DNA of 64,000 bases from Gemmatimonadaceae bacterium (lineage in GTDB: Bacteria; Gemmatimonadota; Gemmatimonadetes; Gemmatimonadales; Gemmatimonadaceae): positions 434,001 to 498,000 of the forward strand of contig JADLCY010000001.1 of assembly GCA_020846935.1 (NCBI GenBank). Reading direction: 5' to 3'. Under the pieces are notes generated by a model. That model had not been told where the DNA came from and did no database searches. It saw nothing but the letters and a program-made list of their open reading frames with translations. This document shows positions 34,569 to 58,514 of the stretch, piece by piece; position 1 is the stretch's first letter; every line of letters starts with the position of its first letter. The translations under genes and the position numbers were made by a program.

Positions 34569-34979
34569 CTACCGAACCAGTGTCACGAACAGGACGTGTT
34601 CGCCGCGGAGCCACGCGCCGTATTCGGTGTAGGCCTGCACGCGCTGCACCATGCGGACACTCGAGACATAGCGCGGTTGGAGGGTGCGCAGCACGTCCGT
34701 GGCCCCGGCGTACTGGCCGTTGATGAAGACGTCGATCTCCGGCTGAATGCCGCGCAATACGTGGCTCCCCAGGCGCGCGCGCACCATGGCGGGACGCGTG
34801 CGCTGCAGCACGTCGAACAGCGAGCTCGCGTCGGGAAAGCGCTGGATCTCGTCGATCGGGACGAACGTCGAGGTGGCGCCCGACCTGGGACGCGGTGTTG
34901 TCAATGTGCCGGACGTGGTGACTGAAGACGTGGTGCAGGCCGTCAGTACGGCACAGGCGAGAAGCATGGCGCGAGTCAT
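34569..34979 (-). CDS. Small lipoprotein with a TonB-plug-like domain
   Basis: The ATG at 34979 gives 136 residues starting MTRAMLLACAVLTACTTS, a lipoprotein signal with lipobox LTAC. The mature part reads IDEIQRFPDASSLFDVLQR, then EIDVFINGQYAGATDVLR and VSSVRMVQRVQAYTEYG. This resembles a minimal plug domain of TonB-dependent receptors (named ligand-like strand, ING(Q)Y, then VxSVRM) but has no barrel. It is a separate gene, with a terminator-like hairpin between it and the upstream lipoprotein gene. The role is unknown; related plug-only proteins sit at 55.6-58.5 kb. Confidence 0.7.
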   Translation of the reverse strand: MTRAMLLACAVLTACTTSSVTTSGTLTTPRPRSGATSTFVPIDEIQRFPDASSLFDVLQRTRPAMVRARLGSHVLRGIQPEIDVFINGQYAGATDVLRTLQPRYVSSVRMVQRVQAYTEYGAWLRGEHVLFVTLVR

Positions 34980-35401
34980 TGGACCCTCCTGGCCCCGTGG
35001 TGCAGTGGATCGGACGGTCCGTCGCGGGGTTGAGGCGCTCGGCTGCGGCGCGCAGGGATGGTCCCTGCATGGAGAGTCGGCGGTGGGAGCGCGTGACAGT
35101 GGTCCGTGACTGTACGGTGCGTGCGTCGCGCCGGCCTGAAAACTCGGGGAACTCCGCTGGGGCAACTACCAGCGCGTTGCCGGCGTGGATGGCGCCCGCT
35201 CGCAGACGACGACACGCCCCGGCAGCGCAGCCCTGGAACGGCGGAGGACAGGACCGCGTGCCAGGGTCGGGCCGGCGGCGACACACGAGTGCCCAGGCGC
35301 GATGATCGGCGGTGAAAAGAAGCTGCCCCCGGAAGCCGAAGCTCCCGAGGGCATCCGGACGGCGCTCCCCCCAGAGACGCCGCCAGTCGGTGACTGCGCG
35401 C
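34980..35401. other. Intergenic stretch between two lipoprotein genes
   Basis: No gene is recognised in these 422 bases. The right part holds the terminator of the LTXXQ-type gene (35313-35352); the rest has no clear promoter or repeat. Confidence 0.6.
35313..35352 (-). terminator. Terminator after the LTXXQ-type lipoprotein gene
   Basis: On the minus strand a 12-base stem (GCCCTCGGGAGC with GCTTCCGGGGGC, two GU pairs) with a TTCG tetraloop is followed by AGCTTCTTTTC. It lies 50 bases after the stop. Confidence 0.8.
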
Positions 35402-36163
35402 TCAGCCGTTGAGGCCGCGCAGCGTGCAGGGATTGTTCCGTTGCTCGGGGGTGAGGATGTCGTTGATCGCCTGCTTGAGTCGAAGCTCGGCGGCGCGGAT
35501 CGCCTGCATCGCCGGTTCGGCTCGCGCCAGGATCCGTCGGATTTCTTCGGCGCTCTTCCCCGCCGCACGCGCGGCACGGGCTTCTTCGTGCACCGCCTTG
35601 ATCGTCGCGATGTGCTCCTTGATCGACGCCTCGAACGCGACCTTGAGTTCGCGGATGGCCTTCACCTGTGCCTCGGTCAGCCTCACGCTGTCCCGGCAGA
35701 CGGTCGGTCGGCGCGAGGCGATCCAGGCGCGCTGCGCGGGCGTGTACACCGCCCAGATGTCGGCCTGCAACTTCACGAAGGCGGCGCGCACGCGTGCCAG
35801 CGGCTCCGCGGCCCGCGCCAGGATCTTTCGCACTTCCTCGCGCGACTTGCCGGCCTCGCGGGCCGCCCTGGCCTCGGCCTCGATCTGCATCAGCAGCTGC
35901 ACGTCCGCTTTGGTTGCGGCCTTGTAGGCTTCGTGCAGCGCGGCAATCTGTGCCTTCTGGTCCGCGGTGAGCTTGAGGCTGTCCGGCAGCTCCGATCCGC
36001 CGATGCCACCGCGATCGGTCACCGCCGCGGTCGACGTTCCGAGATCCTGCACCAGGTCGATCCCCTCACTGTCCTGCCGGGTCGGCGGCGGACTCGTGGG
36101 TTCGGTCGAGCAGGCAGCGGCAGCGACAAGGACGGCGGCGCAGAGCCACGTGGTGCGTCTCAT
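35402..36163 (-). CDS. Lipoprotein with Spy/CpxP-like LTXXQ repeats
   Basis: The ATG at 36163 gives 253 residues with a lipobox (AAVLVAAAACSTEP). Two copies of an LTxxQ-type helical repeat are visible: LTADQKAQIAALHEAYKAA and LTEAQVKAIRELKVAFEA. Each is followed by an ARAAREAGKS or ARAARAAGKS loop, a xILARA helix and a final TPAQRAW or TPEQRNN. This is the layout of Spy/CpxP/LTXXQ-family periplasmic proteins, which are small chaperones or metal-response sensors; here two units are joined. It is anchored to a membrane by the Cys lipid. No regulator gene is adjacent. Confidence 0.78.
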   Translation of the reverse strand: MRRTTWLCAAVLVAAAACSTEPTSPPPTRQDSEGIDLVQDLGTSTAAVTDRGGIGGSELPDSLKLTADQKAQIAALHEAYKAATKADVQLLMQIEAEARAAREAGKSREEVRKILARAAEPLARVRAAFVKLQADIWAVYTPAQRAWIASRRPTVCRDSVRLTEAQVKAIRELKVAFEASIKEHIATIKAVHEEARAARAAGKSAEEIRRILARAEPAMQAIRAAELRLKQAINDILTPEQRNNPCTLRGLNG

Positions 36164-36326
36164 ATGCTGGTCTCTCCGGTCTCGGTGACGGTCGCCGGGG
36201 GTGCGCCGCGACAACGTGAAGGGTGGCTGGCGAGCCATGGCTCGCATGGACGTGGAACCGCGTCGAGGCGGGCGTTGAGCCTCGATCCGTGTGATCCGAC
36301 ACCGCGACCCCTGAGGCGCCCTGACA

Positions 36327-39011
36327 CTACGGCTGACGACGTTCCTCCATGACCACGGTCACGGTCACAAAGTCGTCATCGTCGGCACCCTCTGCCGGAA
36401 GTCGCACGTCGAGCGCGGTCCACTCACCGATTCCTCCGGTGGACGCGACCTCACCGCGGCCGTCGATCCTGGCAGTGACCCCGGGCGAAGGCCCGCGCAC
36501 GCGCAGCGCATACGACTGACCCGCCCGACCCTGCAGCGTCACGGTGTACCGGCCCTCGGCAAAGCGCTCGCGCACCACACGCAGCGCCGCCGAACGATCG
36601 CCAATGCGTGGCGCCGCGGGCTCGGTCGACACCTCCCATCCCCTGCTCCATGAGGCGCCCAGTCGCAGCCGCTCACGCAGTCTGGCCGTGGAGGACGCGA
36701 TCACCGCGCCGGGAAGCCGGGCCACCACCGGCGCTCCCGGCGCCATCGTCGTCACGTCGCTCGCGCCTAACGGGAGCGCCGGCTGGAACGTCACCTCGAG
36801 CGCGCGCCCCGCGTCGCCCGCCGTGCGCCACACCTCGGCCACCAGCGCACGACCGTTGCGCCGGATCGTGAACGACACACGGTCGGCTCCGATCGCCAGC
36901 TGATCGACGCGCACCGAATCCCATTCGGCGGGCAGGTGCGGCGCCAGGGTGAGGCGGCCGGCCGGCGCGTCGACCTCGATGCCCAGCAGCCCACGCACCA
37001 ACGGCGTGATCACCATCGACGTCGCAAAGAACTGATGCGGCACGGCGGTATCCAGCGGCTTGTAGACACGCCCGCTGATCACTTCCGGATTTCGGCCGAG
37101 CGCCTCATCGAACCCCGTGCGCGCGATAGCCTCGAGCGCAAATTGGCCCGCATGTGCGTTGTGGTAGCGATACTGCGCCAGGGCCACCCATCCGGTCACG
37201 AAGGGCCACACCGCCCCGTTGTTGTAGTGCAGCGGGTCGAACAACGGGCTACGGGCTGACAGCGGGCGTGCGCCCCAGTCCGTCATGATCTCGGCGCTGG
37301 CGAGACGAGCGGCCATCTCGGCGCCCCGCTCGGCGTCAAACACATCGAACGCCATCGCCGTCGCGGGCCACGACGTGAGGTTCTCGTTGACCTTGCCACC
37401 TTCGAGGATGGCGAACGCGTACTGCCCCTGTGACGGCATCCACAGCTTCTGTTCGAGCGTCACCAGAGCGCGACGCCTGGTGTCGCGCGCCTCGCGCGCC
37501 AGCGCCGGCTCCGACATCACCTCGGCCATGCGCGCAAACCGCTCCAGCGCCGCGACCCACACACCGCTCAGGTACACATCGGACACGATGCCCTGCTGCA
37601 GGTCGCCGACCTCCAGCGCCCCCGCGCCGGCGATCGGGTTCTCCATCAGTCCGTCTCCGTCCGAGTCGGCGCTCCGCGACCACTGGTAGGCTTTCCTGAT
37701 GTTGGGCCACAGCGAGCGGACCAGCGCCGTGTCCGCCGTCTGCTTCCAGTACTCCCCGAGCGCCAGCACCCAGAACGGCGTCGTGTCGCCATGATAGTAC
37801 GCGTACGGGTAGGCGCCGAACCAGTCGATCTTTGCCGCGCCCTGCGAGATCTCGTGCGTGATCTTGCCATCGGCGCGCTGATACTTCGCAAAGAACCTGA
37901 ACACGCCCTCGCGCACCAGGTCGCGCTGCGCGGTGGCGGTCATCGCGAAGGCGTTGATGGACGCGTCGCCACCAAAGAACCAGCCAAAGCCGGGACGATC
38001 GCTCGCCGCACCGGAGAGGCCGTACCCCGCAACGAGACCGCAGCCAAGGTCCGGATTGCAGACCATCGACTCGTCGAGGTTGACCTTGGCCCACTCGAAA
38101 GCGCGATCAAGCGCGGCGTTCGGCGTCTGCACCCGCAGCGTATTCGCTGACAGCGCGCGGTAGTGCTCCACGCGCTTCGCCCACTCCGCCTGCGCCGCGC
38201 CCGGGCGCAGGAGGCGCTCATACAGTGCGCGCGCCGAGTCACGGGGCATCTCGCCACCCGCAAGCACGATCGGGATGAACGCCTGATGGATGTTGACGTT
38301 GCCGCCCGGAGGCTCGCCCAGCCGCGGCTCCGTGTAGCGTTCGCGTTCATTCCCCACGCCGATCGCAAACTGCGGCGCCGCCGCGGCGAGCATGTGCGCG
38401 GGGACATCCGAAGCACGCGTGACGCCGGGCGAGCCGAGGAAGGCATTGATCTGCCGCCGACTCTCGCTGAACACGAAGGCCCGGGCCGGCGCGTTCCAGG
38501 CCACGTACTGGCCGCCCAGCGATGCCGGCCAGGCGAAATGGATGTCGGGCCTGAACGAGGCGAGAATCTCCATCGGGCGGATGGCGTCCACCTCGAGCAG
38601 CATGATCACCGCGGGCAGGTCCAGCGCGGCAAACACGACTTGCCTGACGGTGAATGTTTCGTAGGCGTATTCGATCGTCACCCCTTCTGGTCGCACCACG
38701 ACGGAACGCGCCACGTCGCGTCCACGAATGGGGTCCGTGTACCTGGGAACCTTGAAGTCGAGCTGGAAGTCGTGGAACCACTTGATCGGCCACGACCACA
38801 GCTCGAGGCGCCCGTCTTCGGTGCCCATCGCGATGCTGCGCCGACCCACCGTCGCGAGGTACGTGTTGGGTCGCGCGTCGCCCCGCAGCTCGAGTGGCGA
38901 TCGTCCCAGGTCGAACCAGGCGATCGTGGGCGAGGGGCCCTGCGCCCTCGCGGGTTCGCTCCAGGCCAGGCACGCGGTGACAAGGGCGGCGACGCGAAGG
39001 CTCTGGCGCAT
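36327..39011 (-). CDS. Secreted six-hairpin glucosidase-like enzyme
   Basis: The ATG at 39011 gives 894 residues with a signal peptide (LVTACLAWSEPARAQG). The core (about 310-680) has an (alpha/alpha)6-type layout with GFGWFFGGDASINAFAMTA, KITHEISQ, YYHGDTTPFWVLALGEYW, DSDGDGLMENP and YNNGAVWPFVTGWVALAQYRY. This matches amylo-alpha-1,6-glucosidase/glycogen-debranching-type and GH15-like enzymes. The conserved acidic residues in GDASINAF and NGAVWPF regions are likely part of the active site. The C-terminal 150 residues form beta domains. Export implies it acts on external glucans. It follows the TonB receptor gene after 200 bases holding two copies of a 19-base repeat. Confidence 0.85.
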   Translation of the reverse strand: MRQSLRVAALVTACLAWSEPARAQGPSPTIAWFDLGRSPLELRGDARPNTYLATVGRRSIAMGTEDGRLELWSWPIKWFHDFQLDFKVPRYTDPIRGRDVARSVVVRPEGVTIEYAYETFTVRQVVFAALDLPAVIMLLEVDAIRPMEILASFRPDIHFAWPASLGGQYVAWNAPARAFVFSESRRQINAFLGSPGVTRASDVPAHMLAAAAPQFAIGVGNERERYTEPRLGEPPGGNVNIHQAFIPIVLAGGEMPRDSARALYERLLRPGAAQAEWAKRVEHYRALSANTLRVQTPNAALDRAFEWAKVNLDESMVCNPDLGCGLVAGYGLSGAASDRPGFGWFFGGDASINAFAMTATAQRDLVREGVFRFFAKYQRADGKITHEISQGAAKIDWFGAYPYAYYHGDTTPFWVLALGEYWKQTADTALVRSLWPNIRKAYQWSRSADSDGDGLMENPIAGAGALEVGDLQQGIVSDVYLSGVWVAALERFARMAEVMSEPALAREARDTRRRALVTLEQKLWMPSQGQYAFAILEGGKVNENLTSWPATAMAFDVFDAERGAEMAARLASAEIMTDWGARPLSARSPLFDPLHYNNGAVWPFVTGWVALAQYRYHNAHAGQFALEAIARTGFDEALGRNPEVISGRVYKPLDTAVPHQFFATSMVITPLVRGLLGIEVDAPAGRLTLAPHLPAEWDSVRVDQLAIGADRVSFTIRRNGRALVAEVWRTAGDAGRALEVTFQPALPLGASDVTTMAPGAPVVARLPGAVIASSTARLRERLRLGASWSRGWEVSTEPAAPRIGDRSAALRVVRERFAEGRYTVTLQGRAGQSYALRVRGPSPGVTARIDGRGEVASTGGIGEWTALDVRLPAEGADDDDFVTVTVVMEERRQP

Positions 39012-39129
39012 GTGAACGCGAGGTCGAGGGCTCAGGTCGTGGTCCGGACCCTCAGGAATGGAAAGGAGATCCACATCCCTGGGAAGGGCGCGAGGCAGCG
39101 AGACTCCTCGCGCTCCCGTGCTCGCCCAC

Positions 39130-39209
39130 CCGCGCGCGGGCCTCAGGCGGAGAATGACGTCACGCCCGCGATCGACGTCTGCGCGTCCGCCCGCGCGCGG
39201 GCCTCAGGC
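39130..39209. repeat. Two copies of a 19-base direct repeat
   Basis: CCGCGCGCGGGCCTCAGGC occurs at 39130-39148 and again at 39191-39209, 61 bases apart. Each contains a palindrome CCCGCGCGCGGG. They lie between the TonB receptor stop and the glucosidase start. Confidence 0.85.
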
Positions 39210-39211
39210 CA

Positions 39212-41296
39212 TTACTCGCGCCGCCACTCCAGCCCCGTCACGAACTGCCGGCCTGTGAAGCCGGGCCACGCGGTGCCCATGGAGCGGTCCAGCAGGTTGG
39301 TGACACCAACCGACCAGGTGAGGCCGGTCGGTAACGGCTGCGTGAGGCGCGCGTCGACCCGTGCCCAGCCACCACGCTCCACCACCGCACCCGACGCCTC
39401 ACGCTCGATCGGCGTGCGGCCGGTGTAGACGAGCGAGGCGCCGCCGCGGAGGCGACCAAGCACGGGCCCGCCGAGTGTGCTCCGCGCGACGAAGCGCGAA
39501 CGCCCGAGCAGTGGCGTTCCCGTGGCACGATCACGCGAGCGAAGCACGTCGACGCCGCCGTCGAGCTGCCAGGCACCTGACGCCACCCCGGCCTCGAACT
39601 CGATGCCCTGCATGCTGCCGCGATCGAGGTTGCGATAGACAAACGTGCCGGCCGCGTCGGGCTCGCTCGTCTCGATGAAGTCGCGGTAGGTGGTCGCCCA
39701 CCCGGTGGCCCTGGCCCAGAGGCGGCGGCCGGTCCATTCGGCGCCTAACGACGCCGACGCCGAACGCTCGGGGCGCAGGTCGGGGTTGCCGGTGACCGCG
39801 TATCCCGCCGCCGTGTTGACGAAGTCGAGGTACAACTCCTTGAAGTCGGGAGCGCGAAAGCCGCGGCCGCCCGAGAGTCGCACGGCGACCTCGGACCGCG
39901 GACGCCACATCATCGCCAGGCGCGGCGCGACGAATCGGCCCCACTGGTCACTCAGCGTCAGGCGCGCTCCCGGCACGAGCGTGAAGGCTCCACGCGACCA
40001 CGTCGCCTGCGCAAACGGCTCCGCGCTCGACACGTCGCGCCGTCGATCCAGCACCCGGTCGGCCGTGATGCGTTCGTGGCGCGCCTGGACCCCCGCATCC
40101 ACGGCCACCCCTTCGAGCGCCGCATTCCACAGGACCTCGCCCTGCCACAGTTCCTGTCGATCGTCCTCGCCGTCACGGCTCACCGGCGCACCGGTCGTGC
40201 TGGCCCGCGACAGGTGCGTGAACGACGCACCGTGCAGCGTCGCCGAGAGGCGTCCACGTGCCATGGTCCGCTCCCCCATCACGCGGCCGGCCCACTGCTG
40301 ATTGTCGGCGAACCGATAGAGCTGGCCTGTGCGGTACCGCTGCGACTCACCTATGCCGAGCATGCTCCCGGTCAGTCGGGTGGAGGACGTGACGTCCCAT
40401 ACGAGCGAGGTCATCCCATTCACGCGCCTCGCGTATGTGCCGTTCTCCCCGGTGAGGCCGGGCACGAGATCGATCGTGCGAGCCCCACCGTCGACCGACA
40501 GCCCGACGTCGCCGCGGCGCCAGCGCAGGTCGCCGGCACCCTCCAGTCGTCCCTGGGTCCCCGCGCCTGACGAGAGCCCCGCCGACCAGCCCACGGCCTC
40601 GGCGCGTCGCGTGATGATGTTCACCACACCGCCCAGCGCATCGCTCCCGTACAGCGTGGACTGCGGTCCCTTCACCACCTCGACCCGCTCCACGAGCGAC
40701 ACCGGAAGCCGCGAAAGATCGAAGTTCCCTGCGACGCGACCGACCAGCGGCTGGCCATCGAGCAGAATCAGCACGCGACGCGAGTCGAAGCCCCGCATCT
40801 GCACCCCGGCACCGGCCGGGATCCCGCCATCGACGTTCAGGCCCGACTGCTCGGCCAGCACCGCACCAAGGTCGGCCGCTCCGGACCGTCGCAGCGCGGT
40901 CCGGTCGATCAGCGCCGTCTCGACCGCGCTCTCGGCAAGCCGCTGCTCGCGCCGCGAGGCGGTGACGATGATCGCGTCGAGCGAACGAGCCACCGGCGCC
41001 AGCGCCACCTGGATCGAGTCACCGGCGGCGAGCGTGAGATCGCGGTACGCGTGACCGGGATGGCGCACGCGGAGGCGCGCGGCGCCATCGTTTGATATCT
41101 CCATCGTCCACGCGCCCGCCGAGTCGGCGCGCGTCGCCCGCGTGGTGCCCAGCTCCAGGACCTCGGCGCCGGCCAGCGGACGACCCGTGGCACCATCCAC
41201 GACGCGGCCGCTGACGCGCCCGGAGGCCTGAGCGGCAACGAGCGCGGGGGCGATCAGGGTGAACCCCGCGAGCCCCCAGCGAATCCATGGGCGCAT
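39212..41296 (-). CDS. TonB-dependent outer membrane receptor
   Basis: The 694-residue protein has a signal peptide (residues 1-23, ending AAQA), an N-terminal carboxypeptidase-regulatory-like domain (VSGRVVDGATGRPLAGAEV), a plug domain (about 105-215; IIVTASRREQRL, MRGFDSRRVLILLDGQPL, VEVVKGPQSTLYGSDALGGVVNIIT) and a beta-barrel to the end. These are the standard parts of a vitamin B12/heme/siderophore receptor. The neighbouring HmuY-like lipoprotein gene (9 bases upstream) makes heme uptake the best guess. The receptor opens by TonB energy, the exb/tonB genes are not in the window. It also follows the two-component genes on the same strand. Confidence 0.92.
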   Translation of the reverse strand: MRPWIRWGLAGFTLIAPALVAAQASGRVSGRVVDGATGRPLAGAEVLELGTTRATRADSAGAWTMEISNDGAARLRVRHPGHAYRDLTLAAGDSIQVALAPVARSLDAIIVTASRREQRLAESAVETALIDRTALRRSGAADLGAVLAEQSGLNVDGGIPAGAGVQMRGFDSRRVLILLDGQPLVGRVAGNFDLSRLPVSLVERVEVVKGPQSTLYGSDALGGVVNIITRRAEAVGWSAGLSSGAGTQGRLEGAGDLRWRRGDVGLSVDGGARTIDLVPGLTGENGTYARRVNGMTSLVWDVTSSTRLTGSMLGIGESQRYRTGQLYRFADNQQWAGRVMGERTMARGRLSATLHGASFTHLSRASTTGAPVSRDGEDDRQELWQGEVLWNAALEGVAVDAGVQARHERITADRVLDRRRDVSSAEPFAQATWSRGAFTLVPGARLTLSDQWGRFVAPRLAMMWRPRSEVAVRLSGGRGFRAPDFKELYLDFVNTAAGYAVTGNPDLRPERSASASLGAEWTGRRLWARATGWATTYRDFIETSEPDAAGTFVYRNLDRGSMQGIEFEAGVASGAWQLDGGVDVLRSRDRATGTPLLGRSRFVARSTLGGPVLGRLRGGASLVYTGRTPIEREASGAVVERGGWARVDARLTQPLPTGLTWSVGVTNLLDRSMGTAWPGFTGRQFVTGLEWRRE

Positions 41297-41305
41297 CGAC
41301 GTCGC

Positions 41306-42349
41306 CTAACGAAGTCGCGCCGAACGCATGGTCACCTGGCGCGACGCGCCGCTGGGACCGTAGTACGACGTGAGCTGGACCTTGTAGACCTCGGTGCCGC
41401 GTTTCACGAGGTATACGTTGAACAGCGGCCAGATCTGGTTGTCTGTGCCCGTGATGTTGTAGCGGTACCAGGGCTTGGCGACAAACACGCCGGCGTTGGC
41501 ATCGCGCTTGTAGGCGACGGCGGGAGCGGTGGCGGCATAGACCGCATCGATCGCGGCAAACGGCGTCGTGTTATCCGGCACGGCCATCACCGTGCCAGTC
41601 CCGCTCACGCCGCCGTTGCTGCGGATCTCGAACCCGGCGAAGCGCAGGTCCCACGTGCCGGTGACCGTCGTGGTCGTACGATTGGTCAGGTCGTAGTAGA
41701 CCGGACCCGTTCGCACGTCGACCGTGGCCTGTACCACCGCGCCAAACGGCGCTCCGGCCGACGGTTGCACGGCGAATTCGAAGGCCACGACTCCGGCGTT
41801 CTGTACGCTCGCATTCGACAGGCCCGTCACGCGCAGCTTGCCCAGCGTGATCGCCGTCGAGCCGCGACGCACTATCCACGACCGTGTGGCGTTCGCCGTC
41901 GCCGCCGCTCCCTGTCCGTTGAACCAGCCACTGATCGCCGGCGCGAGCGAATCTCCCTTGAATTGCGCCTCGGCCGGTACCTGCGCCGCGGTCACCGCCT
42001 CGAAACCCGCCAGTTGGTTGCCCGCGGTGAAGCCCTGCACCTGCGCCGTCGTCGCCTGCTCGTTGGTGCAGAGGCAATGCACCGTCACGCCACCCGGCCC
42101 CGCCGTGCCACCGTTCGTGGTCACCGTGGACCCAAAGAAGCCCAGGTCCCACGCGGAACTCGCCGCGGCGTCGCTCACTGTGACCTGCTGCGGCGCCTCA
42201 CCCAGCTTGACATAGGCGTAGCCCTGCGAAGCATCGACCGTGATCGACGCGGTGGTGGGGACGATCGGCGCAATGGCATCGTCAGTGCCACAGGCAGCAG
42301 GAGCGAGCGCGGCGGCAACGGCGAGCAGGACGGAAGAGAAGCGAGACAT
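41306..42349 (-). CDS. HmuY-like lipoprotein with two domains
   Basis: The ATG at 42349 gives 347 residues with a lipoprotein signal (AVAAALAPAACGTDD). HmuY-type motifs are seen twice. SAWDLGFFGSTVTTNGG is in the first part; TGTWDLRFAGFEIRSNGG is in the second, which also has WYRYN and VYKVQLTSYYGPSG. HmuY proteins of Bacteroidota grab heme and pass it to the TonB receptor HmuR. The 9-base gap to the receptor gene supports such a pair. I cannot confirm heme ligands: no pair of His residues is evident in the usual positions, so another ligand is possible. Its stop codon is inside a copy of the GTTAGGC motif. Confidence 0.82.
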   Translation of the reverse strand: MSRFSSVLLAVAAALAPAACGTDDAIAPIVPTTASITVDASQGYAYVKLGEAPQQVTVSDAAASSAWDLGFFGSTVTTNGGTAGPGGVTVHCLCTNEQATTAQVQGFTAGNQLAGFEAVTAAQVPAEAQFKGDSLAPAISGWFNGQGAAATANATRSWIVRRGSTAITLGKLRVTGLSNASVQNAGVVAFEFAVQPSAGAPFGAVVQATVDVRTGPVYYDLTNRTTTTVTGTWDLRFAGFEIRSNGGVSGTGTVMAVPDNTTPFAAIDAVYAATAPAVAYKRDANAGVFVAKPWYRYNITGTDNQIWPLFNVYLVKRGTEVYKVQLTSYYGPSGASRQVTMRSARLR

Positions 42350-42456
42350 GGCGTTGGGCGAGGGGACGCCAGACAAGGTCTTCGCCACGCCCGCGAGGCC
42401 CCATGCGGGATACTACGTACGGAAGACTACGGACCCAGCGGCAGCCGTCGCGCTCG

Positions 42457-43116
42457 TCAGTCCCCGGTGAGCCCGGCGGCAATCGCCACGCGCGTGAGCC
42501 CTGCCACGCTGCGGACGTCCAGCTTGCGCATGATCGACTCCCGGTGGGCCTCCACCGTACGCACGCTGATGCCAAGCGAGGCCGCGACCTCTTTGTTCAG
42601 AAGTCCTCGGCCGAGCAGTCCAAGGACCTCGCGCTCGCGGTTGGTGAGCGCGTCGATCGACGCGGCAAGGGGTGGCCGGGCCGCCGCGCCCTGGCCTTCG
42701 CGTACGGAGGTGGCCAGGCGCTGCGCGATTGCCGGGCTGAAGTATCCATCCCCAGCGTGGACGGCGATGATCGCGGCCCGCAGGTCGGCCGGGGTGGTGT
42801 CCTTGCGCACGTAGCCCTGTGCACCGTTGCGGAGGCTGGCGAGCACGTACCCCGCGTCGTCGTGTACGCTCAGCATGAGTACGCGCGTGGCATCGCCACG
42901 CTCGCGCAGCGTGCGCACCACGTCGAGGCCCGACATGCCCGGCATCGTGATGTCGAGCAGCACGACGTCCGGCCGCAACGTGTCGACGAGTGCCAGCGCG
43001 CTCGTACCGTCCGAGGCTTCGCCGATCACCGCGATATCCGTCGACGCGACCACCGCCTGGCGGATCCCTTCGCGCACGATCGTGTGGTCGTCGACGATGA
43101 CGAGGCGGATCGTCAT
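42457..43116 (-). CDS. NarL/LuxR-family response regulator
   Basis: 219 residues with a receiver domain: acidic pair Asp9-Asp10, phosphorylation site Asp55 in VVLLDITMPG, and the Lys in YVRKDTTP. The C-terminal helix-turn-helix (LTNREREVLGLLGRGLLNKEVAASLGIS) is LuxR-type. It overlaps the sensor kinase gene by 4 bases and so is the cognate regulator. The HmuY/TonB operon 107 bases downstream on the same strand is a possible target. Confidence 0.94.
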   Translation of the reverse strand: MTIRLVIVDDHTIVREGIRQAVVASTDIAVIGEASDGTSALALVDTLRPDVVLLDITMPGMSGLDVVRTLRERGDATRVLMLSVHDDAGYVLASLRNGAQGYVRKDTTPADLRAAIIAVHAGDGYFSPAIAQRLATSVREGQGAAARPPLAASIDALTNREREVLGLLGRGLLNKEVAASLGISVRTVEAHRESIMRKLDVRSVAGLTRVAIAAGLTGD

Positions 43117-45055: not shown

Positions 45056-45075
45056 GAACGTGTCACCCGGCCAGG

Positions 45076-48206: not shown

Positions 48207-48219
48207 GGCTCCCGGCCTT

Positions 48220-48264: not shown

Positions 48265-48270
48265 TAGCCC

Positions 48271-50618: not shown

Positions 50619-51220
50619 GCGCCGAGCTGCCTTTGCTGGCCATCTACGCCGACGAGTCCTGCCTCGGGAACGGTCGCGAGGGCGAAAACCCCGGCGGGGC
50701 CGGCGCGCTGATCGAGTACCGCACCAGTGACGGTATGCAGGTGCGCCGCGACCTGTGGATCGCCGAGCCGGCGACGACCAACAACCGGATGGCCCTGCGA
50801 TCGGTCATCGAGTCCTTCACCGCCATCGGGCGCAAGGGTTCGCGGTTCCGCGTGACGTTCGTGACCGATTCGCGCTACATCGTCGACGGCATGACCCGGT
50901 GGGTGCACGACTGGGCCCGACGTGACTGGCGCCGGAAGTCCGGCCCCATCGAGAACCTCGAACTCTGGCGCGAAGCGGTGCGCGCCGCGCGCGACCACCA
51001 GGTGGCATGGACCTGGGTTCGCGGTCACAACGGCCATGCACAGAACGAATACGCCAACGATCTCGCGGTGCGAGCGGCCCGATCCCTCACCTCGTCGGAC
51101 GGACTCGTGGAGAGCGGGTTCGATGCCTGGCTGGCCAGCACTCGGGGGGCCGGAATGGCCGGCGCGCTCGAAGCCTTCCCGGACGGCGCCCGGTTTCGCG
51201 CGGCCCCCGCGTTACCATGA
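50615..51220 (+). CDS. RNase H-like protein with altered catalytic residues
   Basis: 201 residues that align with E. coli RNase HI over about 150: YADESCLGNG (first catalytic Asp), TTNNRMALRSVIES, VTDSRYIVDGM (third Asp), WVRGHNGHAQNEYAN (His loop). Two differences matter. The Glu after NNRM (Glu48 in E. coli) is Ala, and the final Asp (134) aligns with Asn in EYAND, with an Asp right after it. An insertion (GREGENP) follows the first motif. RNA cleavage may be weak, or a shifted acid may substitute. A C-terminal tail of about 45 residues is unusual for the family. Confidence 0.82.
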   Translation: MSAELPLLAIYADESCLGNGREGENPGGAGALIEYRTSDGMQVRRDLWIAEPATTNNRMALRSVIESFTAIGRKGSRFRVTFVTDSRYIVDGMTRWVHDWARRDWRRKSGPIENLELWREAVRAARDHQVAWTWVRGHNGHAQNEYANDLAVRAARSLTSSDGLVESGFDAWLASTRGAGMAGALEAFPDGARFRAAPALP

Positions 51221-51265
51221 GCCAGGAGCGCCCGTCAGTTCTCAGGTATCCTCACGGAGTTTCCG

Positions 51266-51448
51266 GTGAAGAAGTCGCTCTTTCTCCTCGTGCTGGGCGT
51301 CGCCGCCGGATACCAGATCGGCTGGCAGGACGCGCAGACGCACACTGAATCCGTCGTGCGACGCGTGATTGCCCAGGTTCAGGGCACCACGAAAGGCAAG
51401 TACGGCAACGACGTCGACGCGCAGATGGAACGCCTCGAATCGCGTTAG
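51266..51448 (+). CDS. Small membrane-anchored protein
   Basis: 60 residues from a GTG with a single N-terminal hydrophobic helix (LFLLVLGVAAGYQIG) followed by a charged region to ERLESR. It could be a small inner membrane protein of unknown role. The stop lies in a GTTAGGG variant of the recurring motif. Confidence 0.55.
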   Translation: MKKSLFLLVLGVAAGYQIGWQDAQTHTESVVRRVIAQVQGTTKGKYGNDVDAQMERLESR

Positions 51449-51508
51449 GGCTGCGCGCACCGGAGTGACGCGTTAAGCTCCACGATCCCGCTCACGCCAG
51501 GCCGCTCG

Positions 51509-52282
51509 ATGGACGATCTCGACCGCCTCTACCGCCGGCTCGTGCTCAACGTGCGCGCCAGCGCACCGCAATTCCTCGGCGCGTCGTTCGAGGTCGCGCA
51601 GCTGTACCAGGAACTCGTGCCGTACCGCACGAGTCGTCGCGAGCTCGGATTCACAGCGGTCGACGAATACGAACTCGCGCTCTGCCAGCTCCTGGCGGGT
51701 TCGCGCGGACTGCTGGACGGCGACGCGGAGATGCAGGCCGCGCTGCGCCGGGAACTCGAGTCACCCAACCCCGACCTCTCCGCGTACCGCGCGTTCGCGA
51801 CCGCGACGGTGCGATTCGTGGAAGCGCCGCTGCGCGAGGCGATGCTGCGGCCAACGCCCGATGAGGCCAGGGCCGCGGGCGCGGCCGCCGCGTCGCCGAT
51901 CGAACACGCCACGCTCGCCGGTCGACCCACGGAGAAGGTCGAGACGCCGCCCGCCAGTCCACCACCCGATCGTCACCGCGACACGGCACGCCCGCCGGCC
52001 TTGCCGCCCGAGCCGCCACCGGCACCGACGCTCAGTCCCGCTGAACAGCGACGTGCCCCAGCTGCACCACAGGATCCCGCAATGCCCGTGTCTCGTCCGA
52101 ACCCGATCCGCCCCCGCTCCGGAGAAGCCTGTCACTACTGCGGCACGGGGCTCCCCGAGGGCCGTAGCATCACGTTCTGCCCGGGGTGCGGACACAACCT
52201 GACCATCCAGCACTGCCCCGCGTGCAACACCGAGCTGGAAGTCGGCTGGAAGTTCTGCGTCACCTGCGGACGTCAGGTGTGA
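51509..52282 (+). CDS. Protein with a C-terminal double zinc ribbon
   Basis: 257 residues. The N-terminal 100 are helical with no known domain (MDDLDRLYRRLVLNVRAS). A Pro/Ala-rich linker (about 120-205) follows. The end carries two zinc-ribbon knuckle pairs: CHYCGTGLPEGRSITFCPGCG and HCPACNTELEVGWKFCVTCG. This is a common way for bacterial proteins to carry an adaptor domain. The partner is unknown. It has no signal peptide. Confidence 0.8.
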   Translation: MDDLDRLYRRLVLNVRASAPQFLGASFEVAQLYQELVPYRTSRRELGFTAVDEYELALCQLLAGSRGLLDGDAEMQAALRRELESPNPDLSAYRAFATATVRFVEAPLREAMLRPTPDEARAAGAAAASPIEHATLAGRPTEKVETPPASPPPDRHRDTARPPALPPEPPPAPTLSPAEQRRAPAAPQDPAMPVSRPNPIRPRSGEACHYCGTGLPEGRSITFCPGCGHNLTIQHCPACNTELEVGWKFCVTCGRQV

Positions 52283-52328
52283 AGCCTGCGCCAGGAGGGC
52301 GGGCACGCGGTGCGGTCTCGCTGGCTCG

Positions 52329-52538
52329 TTGCCCTCTCGCGAGACCCACCAGACCACGTGCCACCGGCAACGATGGTCGGACCAGGACTTCCCCACGGCG
52401 CCTTGGTATCCCGGAATCACCACGGCGCAGGTGCCGTATTCTGTGTGCGGCTCGCGGCAGGACAGCCGCGCGCTGAGCATTCCGTTCAACTGGAGCGCGG
52501 GGGGCAAGGGTCGTGGTCGGACAGATGGCGCGATTGAC
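52329..52538 (+). pseudogene. Decayed fragment of a BNR/VPS10-type protein
   Basis: One frame here reads QRWSDQDFPTAPWYPGITTA, then VPYSVCGSRQDSRALSIP. This resembles a recurring segment of secreted BNR-repeat proteins (FPTAQxY..ITT....PYxxCGxQQDNS, from memory). Nothing of the rest is found, and the 391-base gap (52283-52673) holds no complete gene. The other frames show no better reading. It is likely a relic of a gene like the one at the left edge. Confidence 0.45.
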
Positions 52539-52673
52539 CGTGTCCACCGCCACGTCCGGTGGCCAGCGTCCATGGGATCGCCGTTGTGCCCTGAGGGTAG
52601 TCACCACGACGTACCGGGCGGTCGACACGTTCCTCGACGACACCCGACGACCGTTACCTGCGTAGTGCACGAC

Positions 52674-53816
52674 ATGCGCGACACCTCCGGCACCCTGGGC
52701 CGCCATCTGGCCACGATCGCGTTAGGCACGCTTGCCGCTTGCCACAGCGGCCCCGTCGTCGTGACGAGCACGCCGAGTGCCGGACCGACGCCGTTGACGT
52801 CCTCGCCTCCCGGGGCCGGCGCGCCATCAGTGGCCGTGAACGGTTGGCGCTTCGACGCCCGCGAGCATGTCGATCTGTGGTTGCATGGCTTCGCGATGCT
52901 GCAGGCCGACTCATCGCTCGTGCCGACGTTCCGGCTCGGCTATCGCGACGCCGTCGACGAGGCTCGCCGTGCCGCAGCGGTGACGACGCGCCTCGATAGC
53001 GACCGTCGCGTTCTGCAGCAACGTTTGCGCGAGCAGCCAGCTCTGGGCGCCGCGCAGTTCGTCGCGCTGTACTTCGCGTCGTGGGACGACATGCAACGCG
53101 GCATCGAACGCTTCCTGCGCGCCAACGGCAACGTCCGCGCCGCCGGAGACCAGGAAACGCTCCGCATGTATGCCACGCTCGACACGTACTTCCCCACCGC
53201 CGCCGACCGCGAGTGGGTGCGGATGTTCGTGGAGGCGCTTGCTGACGAACGGGTTCGATTCTACCGGACGTGGTGGTCGACGCAGCAATCCGCGCGGGCA
53301 TCCATGCGCGGCGCACTCGAACTTTCCTGGCGCACGACCTACGCCTCCGCCTTCGGCCGTTTCCTCGGCGGAACCAACCAGCGACAGGGCACGGTCCTGC
53401 TCTCGCTTCCGCTGGGCGGCGAAGGCCGGACGCTCGACGTTGGTCGCCGCGACAACTTTGTGGCGGTCGGCTTTCCGAACCCGGAGGACGACGCGAGCAC
53501 GGCGCTCTTCGTGATGGCGCACGAGCTGGTGGGGACGGTATCGAACGCCGTCGTGCGCGATCATACCACGCCGCGTGAGCAGCAGAGCGGCGAGTCCGGC
53601 CGACTGTCCACGCTGGCGGCAGTACGCGGCGGAGCAATCATGCTGGACCGGGTGGCCCCCGACCTCGCGATCGGCTACCGTCGTTACTATCTGGGTATCG
53701 CCCGCCAGGTACCCGGGAGCGATGTCCCGCGTCAGTTCGACACGGTGTTCGCGATGCCCGACGCCTTGCGCAAGGCTCTGGAACAGCAGATCGACCTCGT
53801 CCTGAACGGAATCTGA
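52674..53816 (+). CDS. Lipoprotein of unknown function
   Basis: The ATG at 52674 gives 380 residues with a short lipoprotein signal (IALGTLAACHSGP; lipobox LAAC). After a Pro/Thr-rich linker the domain starts with WRFDAREHVDLWLHGFAML and includes FMVAH-type FVMAHELVGTVSNAVVRD. A HExxx pattern there is not a full zinc protease motif (HExxH is missing). I cannot assign a family. It is the first of a plus-strand run with the membrane protein gene 6 bases later. Confidence 0.7.
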   Translation: MRDTSGTLGRHLATIALGTLAACHSGPVVVTSTPSAGPTPLTSSPPGAGAPSVAVNGWRFDAREHVDLWLHGFAMLQADSSLVPTFRLGYRDAVDEARRAAAVTTRLDSDRRVLQQRLREQPALGAAQFVALYFASWDDMQRGIERFLRANGNVRAAGDQETLRMYATLDTYFPTAADREWVRMFVEALADERVRFYRTWWSTQQSARASMRGALELSWRTTYASAFGRFLGGTNQRQGTVLLSLPLGGEGRTLDVGRRDNFVAVGFPNPEDDASTALFVMAHELVGTVSNAVVRDHTTPREQQSGESGRLSTLAAVRGGAIMLDRVAPDLAIGYRRYYLGIARQVPGSDVPRQFDTVFAMPDALRKALEQQIDLVLNGI

Positions 53817-53822
53817 CGCCCG

Positions 53823-54680
53823 ATGCCTGACGACCGTCCACGGGAAAGTGGCCCGCCACCCACGGTGCTTTCGCCCGCCGCCCTCGATCGCGGCGCGCTC
53901 GATCGTGTGCTCGCGCGAGCCGCCGAGCTCAACGCGGGCATTCTCGAGCCCGCCGAGGGCATGACCGAGGCACAGTTGGTCGAACTCGGGAAGGAAGTGG
54001 GGATCGGCGCCGAGCACATCCGACAGGCCATCGCCGAGGAACGCACGCGGATCGCGGCACCCAGGGCGACGGGCATGGTCGGGGCGATCTACGGCGCCAG
54101 CGCGGTGATGGCCGCCCGCATCGTGCAGGGAACGCCAGCGAGCGTGCTGGCCGCGCTCGACCAGTGGATGCAACGTGAGGAGATCCTGAGGCCCAAACGA
54201 CGGCTTGCGGATCGCCTCACCTGGGAGGCTCGGCGCGACCTCGTGGGCAACCTCCAGGCGGGCTTCAACTTTTCGGGACGCGCGTATGCCCTCAAGTCGG
54301 CCACTGAAGTCGGAGCGACGGTGGTGGCGGTGGACGCCCAGCGGTGTCTCGTCACGCTCGACGCAGACTTCACCGACTCGCGCGGCGCATCGGTGGCGGG
54401 CAGCGCCGTGGGCGCCTCCCTGCTTTCGGGAGGTGGGGCGGCCGTGGTGGGACTGGCGGCCATGAGCCAGGGCGGCTCGATGCTGATCGCGGGCATCGTG
54501 GCCACGCTGGCGGTGGGCGTCAGCGGAGCCATCGTCGGCGCGACGGGTGAGGCGCACAAGCGCAAGGTCAGGCGGGCGCAGCTTGCCCTCGAGCAGGTGC
54601 TGGACCGGCTGGAGCACGGAGAGATCAAACGTCCCGCCTCCAATCCGCTGGTCGACCTGCTCTCGACGATCACGCGCTGA
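53823..54680 (+). CDS. Membrane protein of unknown function
   Basis: 285 residues. The N-terminal half is soluble (LDRVLARAAELNAGILEPAEG, EEILRPKRRLADRLTWEARR), followed by two hydrophobic segments rich in Ala/Gly near 195-245 (VGASLLSGGGAAVVGLAAM and SMLIAGIVATLAVGVSGAIVG). The last part is charged and helical. No known motif was found; the N-terminal MTEAQLVELGKEVGIG looks like a helical, SHOCT-like start. It lies 6 bases after the lipoprotein gene. Confidence 0.65.
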   Translation: MPDDRPRESGPPPTVLSPAALDRGALDRVLARAAELNAGILEPAEGMTEAQLVELGKEVGIGAEHIRQAIAEERTRIAAPRATGMVGAIYGASAVMAARIVQGTPASVLAALDQWMQREEILRPKRRLADRLTWEARRDLVGNLQAGFNFSGRAYALKSATEVGATVVAVDAQRCLVTLDADFTDSRGASVAGSAVGASLLSGGGAAVVGLAAMSQGGSMLIAGIVATLAVGVSGAIVGATGEAHKRKVRRAQLALEQVLDRLEHGEIKRPASNPLVDLLSTITR

Positions 54681-54736
54681 GCGCCGTTCGTCACACGCCC
54701 TCTCGACCGTCCCGTCAGACGGACCCAAGTTCCGGG

Positions 54737-55624
54737 ATGGTCGAGATCGTACGCGTCGGGATCGTCGGGGGCGGCCTCATGGGCTCCGGGATCGCACAGG
54801 TCAGCGCGCTGGCGGGTTTCGACACCGTCGTGAGGGAGATCGACGATCGGGCGACTGAACGCACGCGGTCGGCCATCGAGCGCTCCCTCGCCAAGGGTGT
54901 GGAGAAGGGCAAGGTCGACGCGACCGACGCGCAGGCAGCGATGGGTCGCCTCCGCGTGGCGAGCGACCTCGAGGTACTGGCCGACCGCGATCTCGTGTTA
55001 GAGGCGATCGTAGAGTCGCTCGATGCCAAGCAGGCGCTCTGGCGTGCGCTCGACCCGATGGTCGGCGCGGGCGCCATCTTCGCCACCAACACCTCGAGCC
55101 TGTCGGTCGCGGAACAAGCGGCCGTCACGCGGCGAGCTGATCGCTTCGTCGGACTCCACTTCTTCAATCCCGTTCCCGTGTTGCGCCTCGTGGAGGTCGT
55201 GCGTAGCGTGGCAACGAGTGAAGCGACGCTGGCCACGGCGACGGCATGGGTGCGTCGGCTCGGCAAGGAACCGATCGTCGCGCGCGACACTCCGGGTTTT
55301 GTGGTGAACCTCCTGCTCGTGCCCTACATGCTGGATGCCATCCGGGCGTTCGAGGGCGGCGTGGCGTCGATCGGGGACATCGACCGCGGCATGCAGCTCG
55401 GCGCGGCGATGCCGAGCGGGCCGCTTGCGCTGTGCGACACCGTGGGGCTCGACACCCTGGAGCGCGTGGCCGACGTGATGCATCGGGCCTCGGGTGAACC
55501 GCGCCACGCGCCGCCGGCGTTGTTGCACCGCCTGGTGCAGGGCGGGAAACTCGGCCGGAAGAGCGGGTGCGGCTTCTACGACTACACCACGGACCCGCCG
55601 ACGCCGACGGCGCTCGCCGGATGA
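54737..55624 (+). CDS. 3-hydroxyacyl-CoA (3-hydroxybutyryl-CoA) dehydrogenase
   Basis: 295 residues. NAD fold VGIVGGGLMGSGIAQVSALAG at the start, ANTSSLSV with Ser, GLHFFNPVPVLRLVEVV with the catalytic His and Glu, and PGFVVNLLLVPYMLDAI with Asn are all present. It oxidises a 3-hydroxyacyl-CoA with NAD. Its stop overlaps the next gene by 4 bases. As part of the CoA-degradation gene set downstream, it may handle the product of the ring-opened or reduced aromatic CoA intermediate; this is inference. Confidence 0.93.
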   Translation: MVEIVRVGIVGGGLMGSGIAQVSALAGFDTVVREIDDRATERTRSAIERSLAKGVEKGKVDATDAQAAMGRLRVASDLEVLADRDLVLEAIVESLDAKQALWRALDPMVGAGAIFATNTSSLSVAEQAAVTRRADRFVGLHFFNPVPVLRLVEVVRSVATSEATLATATAWVRRLGKEPIVARDTPGFVVNLLLVPYMLDAIRAFEGGVASIGDIDRGMQLGAAMPSGPLALCDTVGLDTLERVADVMHRASGEPRHAPPALLHRLVQGGKLGRKSGCGFYDYTTDPPTPTALAG

Positions 55625-57042
55625 TCGCGCGCGCCGCACTCGTCGGGAGCGCGTTGCTCACCCTGCTGGGTCGCGAGGCCCCGGCACGCTGGCAGGCGCC
55701 GCGGATCACTGGCGTGGTCTACGACAGCATTGCCGGCACGGTGCTCCGGGGTGCGAGCGTTCAGCTGCTACCGCTGGAACCCTCGCGCCAGGCGGAGGGG
55801 CGTCGGACGACCGAAAGCGACAGCGCGGGCCGGTACACGCTCGTCGACGTACCGGCCGGGCGGTACCTGATCGGATTCTTCCACGCCAAGCTCGATTCGT
55901 TAGGCATCGACCTCCCGGTGCGCCGGATCGACGTGCGCCTGGCGGCCGAACAGGTCGTTGACCTCGCGACGCCATCGGCCGGCACGGTGATCGCCGGCTG
56001 GTGCGGCGCGGCCGGTGCGCGACCGGACGCGGGGGCGATCCTCGGATTCGTGCGCGACGTCGCCAGCGCAGAGTTGCTCGCGGGAGCGACGGTGGCGGCG
56101 CAATGGAGTGCGATCAGTATTGGCCCGGGTGGCGCCCGGGCCGGCGTGCAGGAAGCGGCCGCACCGACCAGCGGGACGGGGTGGTTCCGGCTCTGCGGCG
56201 TCCCGCGTGGCGGTATCCTGCTCCTCCACGCGGTGAGCGATGTCGATTCGAGCGCACTCCTCGAGCTCGACGTGCCCGCGCACGGGTTGCTCCTGCGCGA
56301 CATCATGATCCATCGCCGGGCATCGAGTGCCGATGCGCCGTCCACCATCGTGAGCGGCATCGTGCGCGACCGGTCGGGGCAGGGGTTGCCCGGTGTGCGC
56401 GTGCGCCTGTATGGACACGACGCGGAGACGCGAACGAGTGCGACCGGCGAGTTTCGACTCGGCGCGACCGCCGCGGGGACGCAGCTCCTCGATGCACGGC
56501 TCATCGGATTCGTTCCTGCCCGTCGCGTGGTGGACGTGTCGCCGGTGACCGGCGCGCGCGTGGACCTCACCATGGCCGACTTTCCGACGGAGATCGACAC
56601 CGTGCGCGTCATGACCGCTTTCGCGCGACGCACGGATCTCCTCGCCGGCTTCGAGCGGCGCCGACGCCTGGGGCACGGGACGTTCCTTGATCCCGACCAG
56701 GTGGAGCAACGCCGCCCGCTCGTGTTCACGGACCTCGTGCGCGGACTCCCCGGCGTCCAGGTGCGCAGCGTGGATCAGATGACGCGACAGGTCGAGATGC
56801 GTGGCGCGTCCGGGGAGGTCTGCGTTCCGGCGCTCGTGGTCGACGGCGTGCGGGTCCCCGTGCTCGACATGAGCGTCGATGATGTGATTCCGGCCGACCT
56901 CGTGAAGGCCGTCGAGGTATACCCGCGCCGCATCCAGGCGCCGCCGGAGTACCAAACTCCCGAGTGCGGGAGCGTCGTGGTATGGACGGGGGTCCGCGGG
57001 TGGCTGGCGCGAGGGTTGCGCGCCGCGGGGCGCCGGCCGTGA
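55621..57042 (+). CDS. Plug-type protein with carboxypeptidase-regulatory domains, no barrel
   Basis: 473 residues from an ATG overlapping the dehydrogenase stop. A short hydrophobic start is followed by a regulatory-like beta domain (ITGVVYDSIAGTVLRGASV; DSAGRYTLVDVPAGRY). A second such domain lies near 245 (VSGIVRDRSGQGLPGVRVRLY). The plug-like end has VFTDLVRGLPGVQVRSVDQ, then VDGVRVPVLDM and VKAVEVYPRRIQAPPEYQ. TonB receptors continue into a barrel of 500 or more residues; this protein ends instead. It is homologous to the next gene. The secreted or outer-membrane location is inferred. Confidence 0.78.
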   Translation: MIARAALVGSALLTLLGREAPARWQAPRITGVVYDSIAGTVLRGASVQLLPLEPSRQAEGRRTTESDSAGRYTLVDVPAGRYLIGFFHAKLDSLGIDLPVRRIDVRLAAEQVVDLATPSAGTVIAGWCGAAGARPDAGAILGFVRDVASAELLAGATVAAQWSAISIGPGGARAGVQEAAAPTSGTGWFRLCGVPRGGILLLHAVSDVDSSALLELDVPAHGLLLRDIMIHRRASSADAPSTIVSGIVRDRSGQGLPGVRVRLYGHDAETRTSATGEFRLGATAAGTQLLDARLIGFVPARRVVDVSPVTGARVDLTMADFPTEIDTVRVMTAFARRTDLLAGFERRRRLGHGTFLDPDQVEQRRPLVFTDLVRGLPGVQVRSVDQMTRQVEMRGASGEVCVPALVVDGVRVPVLDMSVDDVIPADLVKAVEVYPRRIQAPPEYQTPECGSVVVWTGVRGWLARGLRAAGRRP

Positions 57043-58514
57043 GGCGGCTCGCGATCGTGCTGGCGCTGTGCGCGGTGTGTGCTGCCGTGCCCGCGCTCTG
57101 GGCGCAGGGGCCCACCGGCCCGCTCGCGACCATTGCCGGTTCGGTCTTCGATAGCCTGTCGCTCCGACCGATGGCGGGAGCGGTGGTGCAACTGGCCCGG
57201 CTCGGTGGAGGCGGTCGTGTCGAGGACACACGAAGCACCGCGACCGATTCCGCGGGTCGCTATGCGTTCGAGACGATACCGCTCGGTTCGTACCTGCTCG
57301 GCTTCCAGCACCTGGCGCTCGACACGCTCGGCCTGCGCACACCGGTGCACCGCGTTGACGTGCGCCGCGCGGGAACGGTCCGCGTGGCGCTCGCCGCACC
57401 CACCATGCAGTCGGTCGTTGCCAGCGTGTGCGGCGAACAGACGCGTCGCGATTCGGTGGCGCTCCTCGTCGGAAGCGTGCGGGACGCAGAGGCCGGCGGC
57501 GCGGTGCGCGATGCGTTCGTATCCGTCCGCTGGTCCGAAGTCTTTCTCACGCGTGCCGGCATCGTGCGGGAGACGCCGCGCCACGACCTGCGGTCGCGCG
57601 ACGATGGGTGGTACGTGGCGTGCGTGCCGTCGAGCGTGCCGGTCACGATCCATGCGGAACTCGACGCGAGCCGTTCCGGGGACGTGGAGTTGCGCGTGTC
57701 CCTGCACACCGTCCAGCGGCGCGACCTCTACATCGGGCGGGCCACCGTCGCGATCGTCACGGCGGACGACTCGGTGCGTACCAGCGGCGCCGTGAACGCC
57801 GGCGATCGCATCGTGGCGAGCGGCAAGGGCGTGATCCGCGGGTTGGTGCGCCGCCTCGACGGACGCCCGCTCCCTGACGCCAGAGTCGGCCTGGCCGGGA
57901 CCCGCGCCGAGGCGCGCACCGACAGCGGCGGGCGCTTCGTCCTGCGTGCGCTCCCCGAAGGCTCGCGCATGGTGGAGGTGCGGGCGCTCGGCTTCATGCC
58001 ATCGGAGACGCTCGTCGACGTCGTCGGCTTCGAGGACACGCCGGTGTCGATCACGATGCTCGACGTCGAATCCGTACTGCTCGATACCGTTCGCGTCCGC
58101 GCCGCGCGGCGCATGACGGAGGTGATGCGCGCCGGATTCGAGCGGCGGCGCAAGTCCGGCACCGGCACGTTCCTCGACGAGCGACTGCTCGACACCCTGC
58201 GCGCGAACACGTTTTCGGACATCGCGCGACACGTGACAGGCATCATCTTCCGCGAAGGTCGCGGCATGAACGACGCCTTCGAGCGGCAGATGTTTTTCAG
58301 TGGCGGCGGACGATCCGAGCCGTGCCAGCCCATGATCTACGTGGACGGGATCCGACTCGTCCAGGGCATCACCGACGTGGACCAGCTGGTGGATCCGACG
58401 ACGATCCGGCGGGTGGAGGTGTACCTCAGGGGGACGACCCCGCCGGCGGAGTTCGCGTCGTTCGCCGAGTGCGGGATTCTCGCCCTGTGGACGGGGCCTC
58501 GCTTGCGCCGCTGA
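57039..58514 (+). CDS. Second plug-type protein, paralogue of the preceding gene
   Basis: The GTG at 57039 overlaps the previous stop and gives 491 residues with a signal peptide (IVLALCAVCAAVPALWAQG). Domains match its neighbour: a regulatory-like domain (IAGSVFDSLSLRPMAGAV), another near 265 (IRGLVRRLDGRPLPDARV), and a plug-like end with FERRRKSGTGTFLDERL, MIYVDGIRLVQGI and IRRVEVYLRGTTPPAEF. The shared GFERRR...G.GTFLD segment shows a tandem duplication. Neither has a barrel. They sit inside a CoA-degradation gene set, which suggests an uptake-related role (inference). Confidence 0.8.
   Translation: MRRLAIVLALCAVCAAVPALWAQGPTGPLATIAGSVFDSLSLRPMAGAVVQLARLGGGGRVEDTRSTATDSAGRYAFETIPLGSYLLGFQHLALDTLGLRTPVHRVDVRRAGTVRVALAAPTMQSVVASVCGEQTRRDSVALLVGSVRDAEAGGAVRDAFVSVRWSEVFLTRAGIVRETPRHDLRSRDDGWYVACVPSSVPVTIHAELDASRSGDVELRVSLHTVQRRDLYIGRATVAIVTADDSVRTSGAVNAGDRIVASGKGVIRGLVRRLDGRPLPDARVGLAGTRAEARTDSGGRFVLRALPEGSRMVEVRALGFMPSETLVDVVGFEDTPVSITMLDVESVLLDTVRVRAARRMTEVMRAGFERRRKSGTGTFLDERLLDTLRANTFSDIARHVTGIIFREGRGMNDAFERQMFFSGGGRSEPCQPMIYVDGIRLVQGITDVDQLVDPTTIRRVEVYLRGTTPPAEFASFAECGILALWTGPRLRR

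Follow-up and report, generated by a model that had tools for sequence, protein, structure and literature searches.

A stretch of 64,000 nucleotides from a Gemmatimonadaceae bacterium (assembly GCA_020846935.1, contig JADLCY010000001.1, positions 434,001 to 498,000 of the forward strand; hereafter the window) encodes three proteins that resemble the plug domains of TonB-dependent transporters (TBDTs) and end before any barrel. Two of them, the tandem paralogs P0002 and P0003, are almost certainly plugs without a barrel and belong to a family found throughout the Gemmatimonadota. The third, P0001, is likely a barrel-less plug as well and belongs to a different family. As a tentative reading, we propose that proteins of the P0002/P0003 type may serve as periplasmic clients of TonB that never form a pore. 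All three reading frames were confirmed, and the features on which the argument turns are the following, where NTE denotes the N-terminal extension of SusC-type receptors:

P0001: 34569-34979, minus strand; putative minimal barrel-less plug lipoprotein of 136 amino acids with an LTAC lipobox at residues 12-15, assigned from sequence only.
P0002: 55621-57042, plus strand; three transthyretin-like/NTE-like domains, the TonB-box-like segment IDTVRV and a plug.
P0003: 57039-58514, plus strand; three transthyretin-like/NTE-like domains, LDTVRV (residues 348-353) and a plug (about residues 357-487).
LDTVRV, the TonB-box-like segment of P0003: 58080-58097, plus strand; within model residues 348-354, where pLDDT is below 50.
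Cys429 of the P0003 plug cysteine pair: 58323-58325, plus strand.
Cys478 of the P0003 plug cysteine pair: 58470-58472, plus strand.

P0002 and P0003 are about 34-36% identical, and their frames share 4 bases where P0002 stops and P0003 starts; P0001 lies on the opposite strand, 20 kb away. An earlier sequence-only reading of the window had grouped all three as stand-alone plugs, and had noted in P0002 and P0003 a common GFERRR...GTFLD segment and carboxypeptidase-regulatory-like domains. Both of these details proved right, as did the lack of a barrel behind each plug, whereas the single grouping holds for P0002 and P0003 and not for P0001.

The plug assignment rests on a different line of evidence for each protein: a Pfam match for P0002, a structure model for P0003 and a family profile for P0001. 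P0002 matches the Pfam Plug domain (PF07715) with 27.0 bits against a curated cut-off of 23.9, and P0003 searched alone gives no Plug match at E<1. Both match CarboxypepD_reg and also PF13715 (CarbopepD_reg_2, the domain of SusC-type NTEs; 49.9 bits for P0002 and 50.8 for P0003, cut-off 32.2). PF13715 is matched by every one of the 44 aligned family members and Plug, at E<=0.01, by 26 of them; 42 of the 44 carry an N-terminal hydrophobic core, and P0002 and P0003 look like exported proteins. A phmmer search of PDB sequences returned nothing for P0002 or P0001.

The full-length model of P0003, built with 43 relatives, has a mean pLDDT of 88.6 and opens with three transthyretin-like domains, the last of which superposes on carboxypeptidase D (Z 13.8, 1.4 Å over 80 residues) and on the NTE of the SusC protein BT3090 (9hfj; Z 13.3, 2.4 Å over 80 residues). 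Submitted whole to Foldseek, the model drew immunoglobulin (Ig)-type domains, from surface proteins and pilins as well as transthyretin, and because these filled the listing we modeled the plug alone. The plug-only model (pLDDT 88.1, pTM 0.82) returned TBDTs in all 50 rows listed, led by BtuB (2guf, E 1.1e-4), with about 103-126 of its 138 residues covered by these rows. In VIA-align it matched Fiu (Z 9.2, 4.7 Å over 119), FyuA (Z 8.5, 3.9 Å over 114), SusC Bt1763 (Z 8.5, 4.2 Å over 109) and a fourth structure at Z 8.1. These Z values are moderate, yet the Foldseek rows are uniformly plugs, and we reject a chance resemblance. Comparison with receptor plugs had been set beforehand as a test of the sequence-only reading, and its proposal of a stand-alone plug family is borne out by this fold and by the size and spread of the family described below.

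No barrel is present in the same chain, as the frames of both P0002 and P0003 stop straight after the plug. To count barrels among relatives, we took the 112 distinct matches in 162 loci and set aside two that were cut by a locus end. No barrel occurs in the remaining 110 complete members, of which 105 stop no more than 40 residues past the match; the other five carry a tail of 130-132 residues, one of which Pfam identifies as a TonB C-terminal domain (TonB_C). Barrels consistently fused in relatives, which would have spoken against the sequence-only reading, are thus not seen for the P0002/P0003 family. In a tree of these 110 lone plugs and 19 barrel-bearing plugs, each set forms one side of a 100/100 branch, with the caveats that the two groups were picked by different profiles, that few columns were available, that the root is arbitrary and that the 19 canonical rows come largely from the window's own genome. 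The lack of any barrel among the 110 and the separate branch together argue that lone plugs are not truncations of receptors.

The family is both large and widely spread. Of 59 family-level genomes, 58 hold relatives of P0003 at E<=1e-15, each of them at least 1 to 13 matches, and the plug profile at E<=1e-8 is matched in at least 234 of 298 phylum-level Gemmatimonadota genomes. Outside the phylum, the scope was a scan of named records with one narrow peptide pattern plus a plasmid scan, the latter yielding one Gemmatirosa record. The 45 loci with record titles are nearly all Gemmatimonadota, apart from one titled 'bacterium' and one titled Candidatus Kuenenia. This last contig (L083, Candidatus Kuenenia stuttgartiensis) holds typical lone plugs, and its record name is probably wrong.

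Two features are conserved in the family. The segment ahead of the plug, LDTVRV in P0003, resembles the classical TonB-box pattern, and it lies in the sole stretch of the full-length model with pLDDT below 50. Its first three residues are kept in 40 (L), 41 (D) and 42 (T) of the 44 aligned rows, and 88 of the 110 members combine aspartate or glutamate at position 2 with a hydrophobic residue at position 4. The second feature is a set of four cysteines, 131 and 195 in the middle domain and 429 and 478 in the plug, invariant in all 44 aligned members. Across the wider set of 110, both plug cysteines are present in 108 members and neither in one; the remaining member (L103) was scored as having one because the aligned piece stopped short of its end, and its tail does read CGAVVIWTK. 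Among orthologs of a subfamily fused to TonB_C, 26 of 30 have both, four have neither and none has a single one. That the plug cysteines are kept and lost as a pair fits a predicted disulfide.

Known systems offer a framework for interpreting this architecture. In SusC, the NTE precedes the TonB box, which the relevant passage of PMC7782687 gives as VDEVVV. The SusC-type TBDTs Bt1763 and BT3090 share with the lone plugs the order of NTE-like domain, TonB box (in the lone plugs a TonB-box-like segment) and plug, and both the NTE and the plug match structurally. P0002 and P0003 have a counterpart of each SusC-type receptor element that contacts TonB and lack the pore-forming element. By contrast with those receptors, they add two further transthyretin-like domains in front, the plug cysteine pair and a GFxxRR..G.G.F segment between box and plug. 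A second comparison is TolB, the periplasmic target of TolA, whose ancestor, as proposed in PMC12204202, was an outer-membrane protein that shed the barrel; what was left would be a periplasmic protein on which a TonB-like force transducer acts. TolB consists of a Rossmann-like domain and a β-propeller, whereas the domains found in P0002 and P0003 are transthyretin-like plus plug, and the lone plugs may work alike without being members of that family. PMC12204202 also describes PorE as a periplasm-facing lipoprotein with a carboxypeptidase-type Ig domain and suggests TonB-like use of force; PorE shares this domain with the lone plugs and differs in its other domains, having no plug.

One connection to the Ton system comes from the fusion subfamily. 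These barrel-less plugs open with a signal-peptide-like stretch, continue with one carboxypeptidase-type domain and the plug, and end in a PF03544 (TonB_C) domain, which is absent from P0002 and P0003; the opening stretch and the carboxypeptidase-type domain distinguish them from TonB_C proteins. Orthologs occur in 26 of the 59 family genomes, and those found align across the same TonB_C tail as the Pfam-confirmed fusion. Two examples are:

Plug-TonB_C fusion: L004:1315-2559, and in the window's own genome C2:349408-350568.

A second connection is the gene order around P0003. Its orthologs in two genomes (G005 and G038), 48-49% identical and joined with P0003 in one 100/100 branch, have a TonB gene at a distance of 2.3 kb, in the order hypothetical gene, P0003 ortholog, patatin, a gene denoted X and the TonB_C protein. 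Downstream of the window, patatin, X and TonB are found as well, the last of them at this position:

TonB paralog: own genome C1:504296-505006 (L169:6296-7006), downstream of the window.

The eight best matches to this linked TonB fall in the window's genome, G029, G054, G053, G026, G011, G038 and G005, that is, in the six genomes in which plugs adjoin a gene for salicylyl-CoA 5-hydroxylase (SCH; see below) plus G038 and G005. Six of these genomes carry plug and linked TonB on one contig and strand, 2.3-23 kb apart; in G026 and G054 they lie on separate contigs. The linkage may reflect common descent of the gene order and nothing more.

Together, the plug-TonB_C fusion, the TonB neighbor and the precedent of TolB's proposed origin lead us to favor, tentatively, a role as clients of TonB over the other mechanisms considered. 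The family would represent the periplasm-facing half of a SusC/Oar-type transporter, with NTE-like domains, TonB box and plug and without the barrel. Exported by predicted signal peptides, the proteins would act as soluble periplasmic clients of TonB, whose C-terminal domain would bind the flexible LDTVRV box and pull or hold the protein. The plug, which the paired cysteines would brace, would then serve together with the tandem Ig-like domains as a binding module instead of a cork. A bolder version, which we consider unlikely, gives Gemmatimonadota a branch of the Ton system that needs no barrel. The inner-membrane motor would act through many braced, barrel-less plugs, some paired with a TonB paralog of their own or fused to a TonB C-terminal domain, and would pull periplasmic or envelope partners in the manner of Tol-Pal, the plug serving as a load-bearing coupler instead of a cork.

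Several observations weigh against a TonB client. Residue 5 of the box is arginine or lysine in 86 of the 110 members, and where a box could be recognized by pattern in barrel-bearing relatives it mostly reads VVV, as opposed to the V-R/K-V of lone plugs. The TonB linkage is confined to one group of genomes: the next eight TonB loci after the eight best lack patatin and X, and a plug lies within about 6 kb in only one of them. No ExbB or ExbD was seen beside the linked TonB; ExbD genes are on another contig. Finally, clustering of neighbors over 45 loci revealed no constant partner for most members, the largest clusters after the plugs themselves comprising 8, 7 and 7 loci.

The main rival is that the plug and the Ig domains were recruited simply for binding or as a scaffold, in the periplasm or at the surface, with the box no more than the linker that follows the last transthyretin-like domain and TonB not involved. 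It is a possible explanation, if not a probable one, and draws on the tandem-Ig surface proteins and pilins at the top of the whole-model Foldseek ranking, on the lineage-wide expansion with scattered gene settings and on the basic residue inside the box. High conservation of a box that is predicted to be disordered would be unusual for a mere linker, however, and the existence of plug-TonB_C fusions also speaks against it.

The sequence-only reading had suggested adaptors or decoys for TonB-linked uptake. That the proteins are decoys, binding TonB to limit its supply to true transporters, seems improbable. Such a role would account for a TonB-box-like motif kept without a pore, for the retained NTE-like domain and for the many copies per genome (at least 13 matches at E<=1e-15 in the richest). 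A decoy would have no need to conserve the plug core or to keep its cysteines invariant, and the neighborhoods we examined revealed no regulatory gene linkage.

It is more improbable still that the lone plugs enter and gate barrels encoded by other genes. In favor of this reading, their plug fold is complete, and PMC7782687 indicates that in vitro the plug of SusC is able to exit its barrel. Against it, we looked for free barrels in the window's own genome, where 31 of 33 barrel genes have a Pfam Plug match in the same gene; the frames of the other two (C15:177397 and C8:233785), at 959 and 1093 amino acids, leave room for a divergent plug that Pfam would miss. Moreover, no regular barrel neighbor of lone plugs was found in the neighborhoods examined. 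One lone plug, at C11:310907, lies divergent from a receptor gene.

We reject decayed transporters: although some relatives have a stop inside the match, the family-specific invariant residues, the 0 of 110 members with any barrel remainder, the separate 100/100 branch and the frames that stay open in nearly all rows among the matches listed make remnants very unlikely.

P0001 likely represents a second kind of barrel-less plug. Alone it has no match in Pfam, and the assignment comes from its relatives, which occur at E<=0.001 in 28 of the 59 genomes: the family profile matches canonical plugs with a probability of 93.5% (E 2.3e-7) and lone plugs of the P0002/P0003 type with a probability of 94.1%, and 6 of 22 family members match Pfam Plug, the best at 3.1e-6. 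In the family alignment, P0001 has no box resembling LDTVRV. Judged by these profiles and its lipobox, P0001 is a separate, predicted lipid-anchored minimal plug without a TonB box; because a simple pattern recognizes a lipobox in 12 of 26 relatives examined, we assign the lipid anchor to P0001 only and not to the whole family. An LTXXQ-motif protein, matched in two stretches (window 35402-36247, minus strand), adjoins P0001. A P0001-type plug also lies about 5 kb beyond the TonB gene at C1:504296, and in G053 the orthologous TonB is likewise followed by one after about 4 kb. Barrel-less plugs of a third kind (L063:7509-8375 and L072:8767-9381) are lipoprotein-like, closer to the canonical profile and encoded near lone-plug genes. 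The plugs of L063:6016-7494 and L072 (partial frame 2-742) are followed by a hydrophobic C-terminal tail, possibly a membrane anchor.

In the window, the plug pair is embedded among genes of coenzyme A (CoA) metabolism, a setting the sequence-only reading had called odd:

Hypothetical gene: 53823-54680, plus strand; syntenic with plug genes even where HBD is absent.
HBD, 3-hydroxybutyryl-CoA dehydrogenase-like gene: 54737-55624, plus strand; coupled upstream neighbor of P0002, whose start overlaps the HBD stop by 4 bases.
SCH, bifunctional salicylyl-CoA 5-hydroxylase/oxidoreductase: 58821-61172, plus strand; downstream neighbor of the plug pair.

SCH is present in 32 of the 59 genomes. Plugs adjoin it on the HBD side in at least 6 of 33 SCH loci, the window included, a lower bound because some stretches are cut by contig ends; the copies number two in the window, three in G029, one in G054 (at a contig end), two each in G026 and G053, and one in G011. 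At one further SCH locus a plug lies about 6 kb off, and in the metagenome-assembled genome ES-bin-29 (L060) SCH is preceded by four plugs. The setting is real, being conserved in three genera and ES-bin-29, and it is limited to a clade. It is probably not functional, because it is absent around the P0003 orthologs of another genus: in G005 and G038 the hypothetical gene precedes the ortholog without HBD or SCH nearby, for which reason we also reject aromatic CoA breakdown as the main function.

Barrel-less plugs are a variant of the TBDT plug kind that is new relative to the open-licence PMC literature searched, in which we found no description of such a family by titles and the starts of abstracts. 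Work on the plug has so far treated it as a pore's cork; here, a large and old family has the cork and its putative handle and never the pore. Genome surveys that count Plug domains overcount transporters in Gemmatimonadota. If the TonB-client reading is true, TonB-linked plugs can work outside transport, the TonB machine may have targets that are not pores, and the family would join TolB, with the origin proposed for it, as another example of a protein without a barrel on which a force transducer acts in the periplasm.

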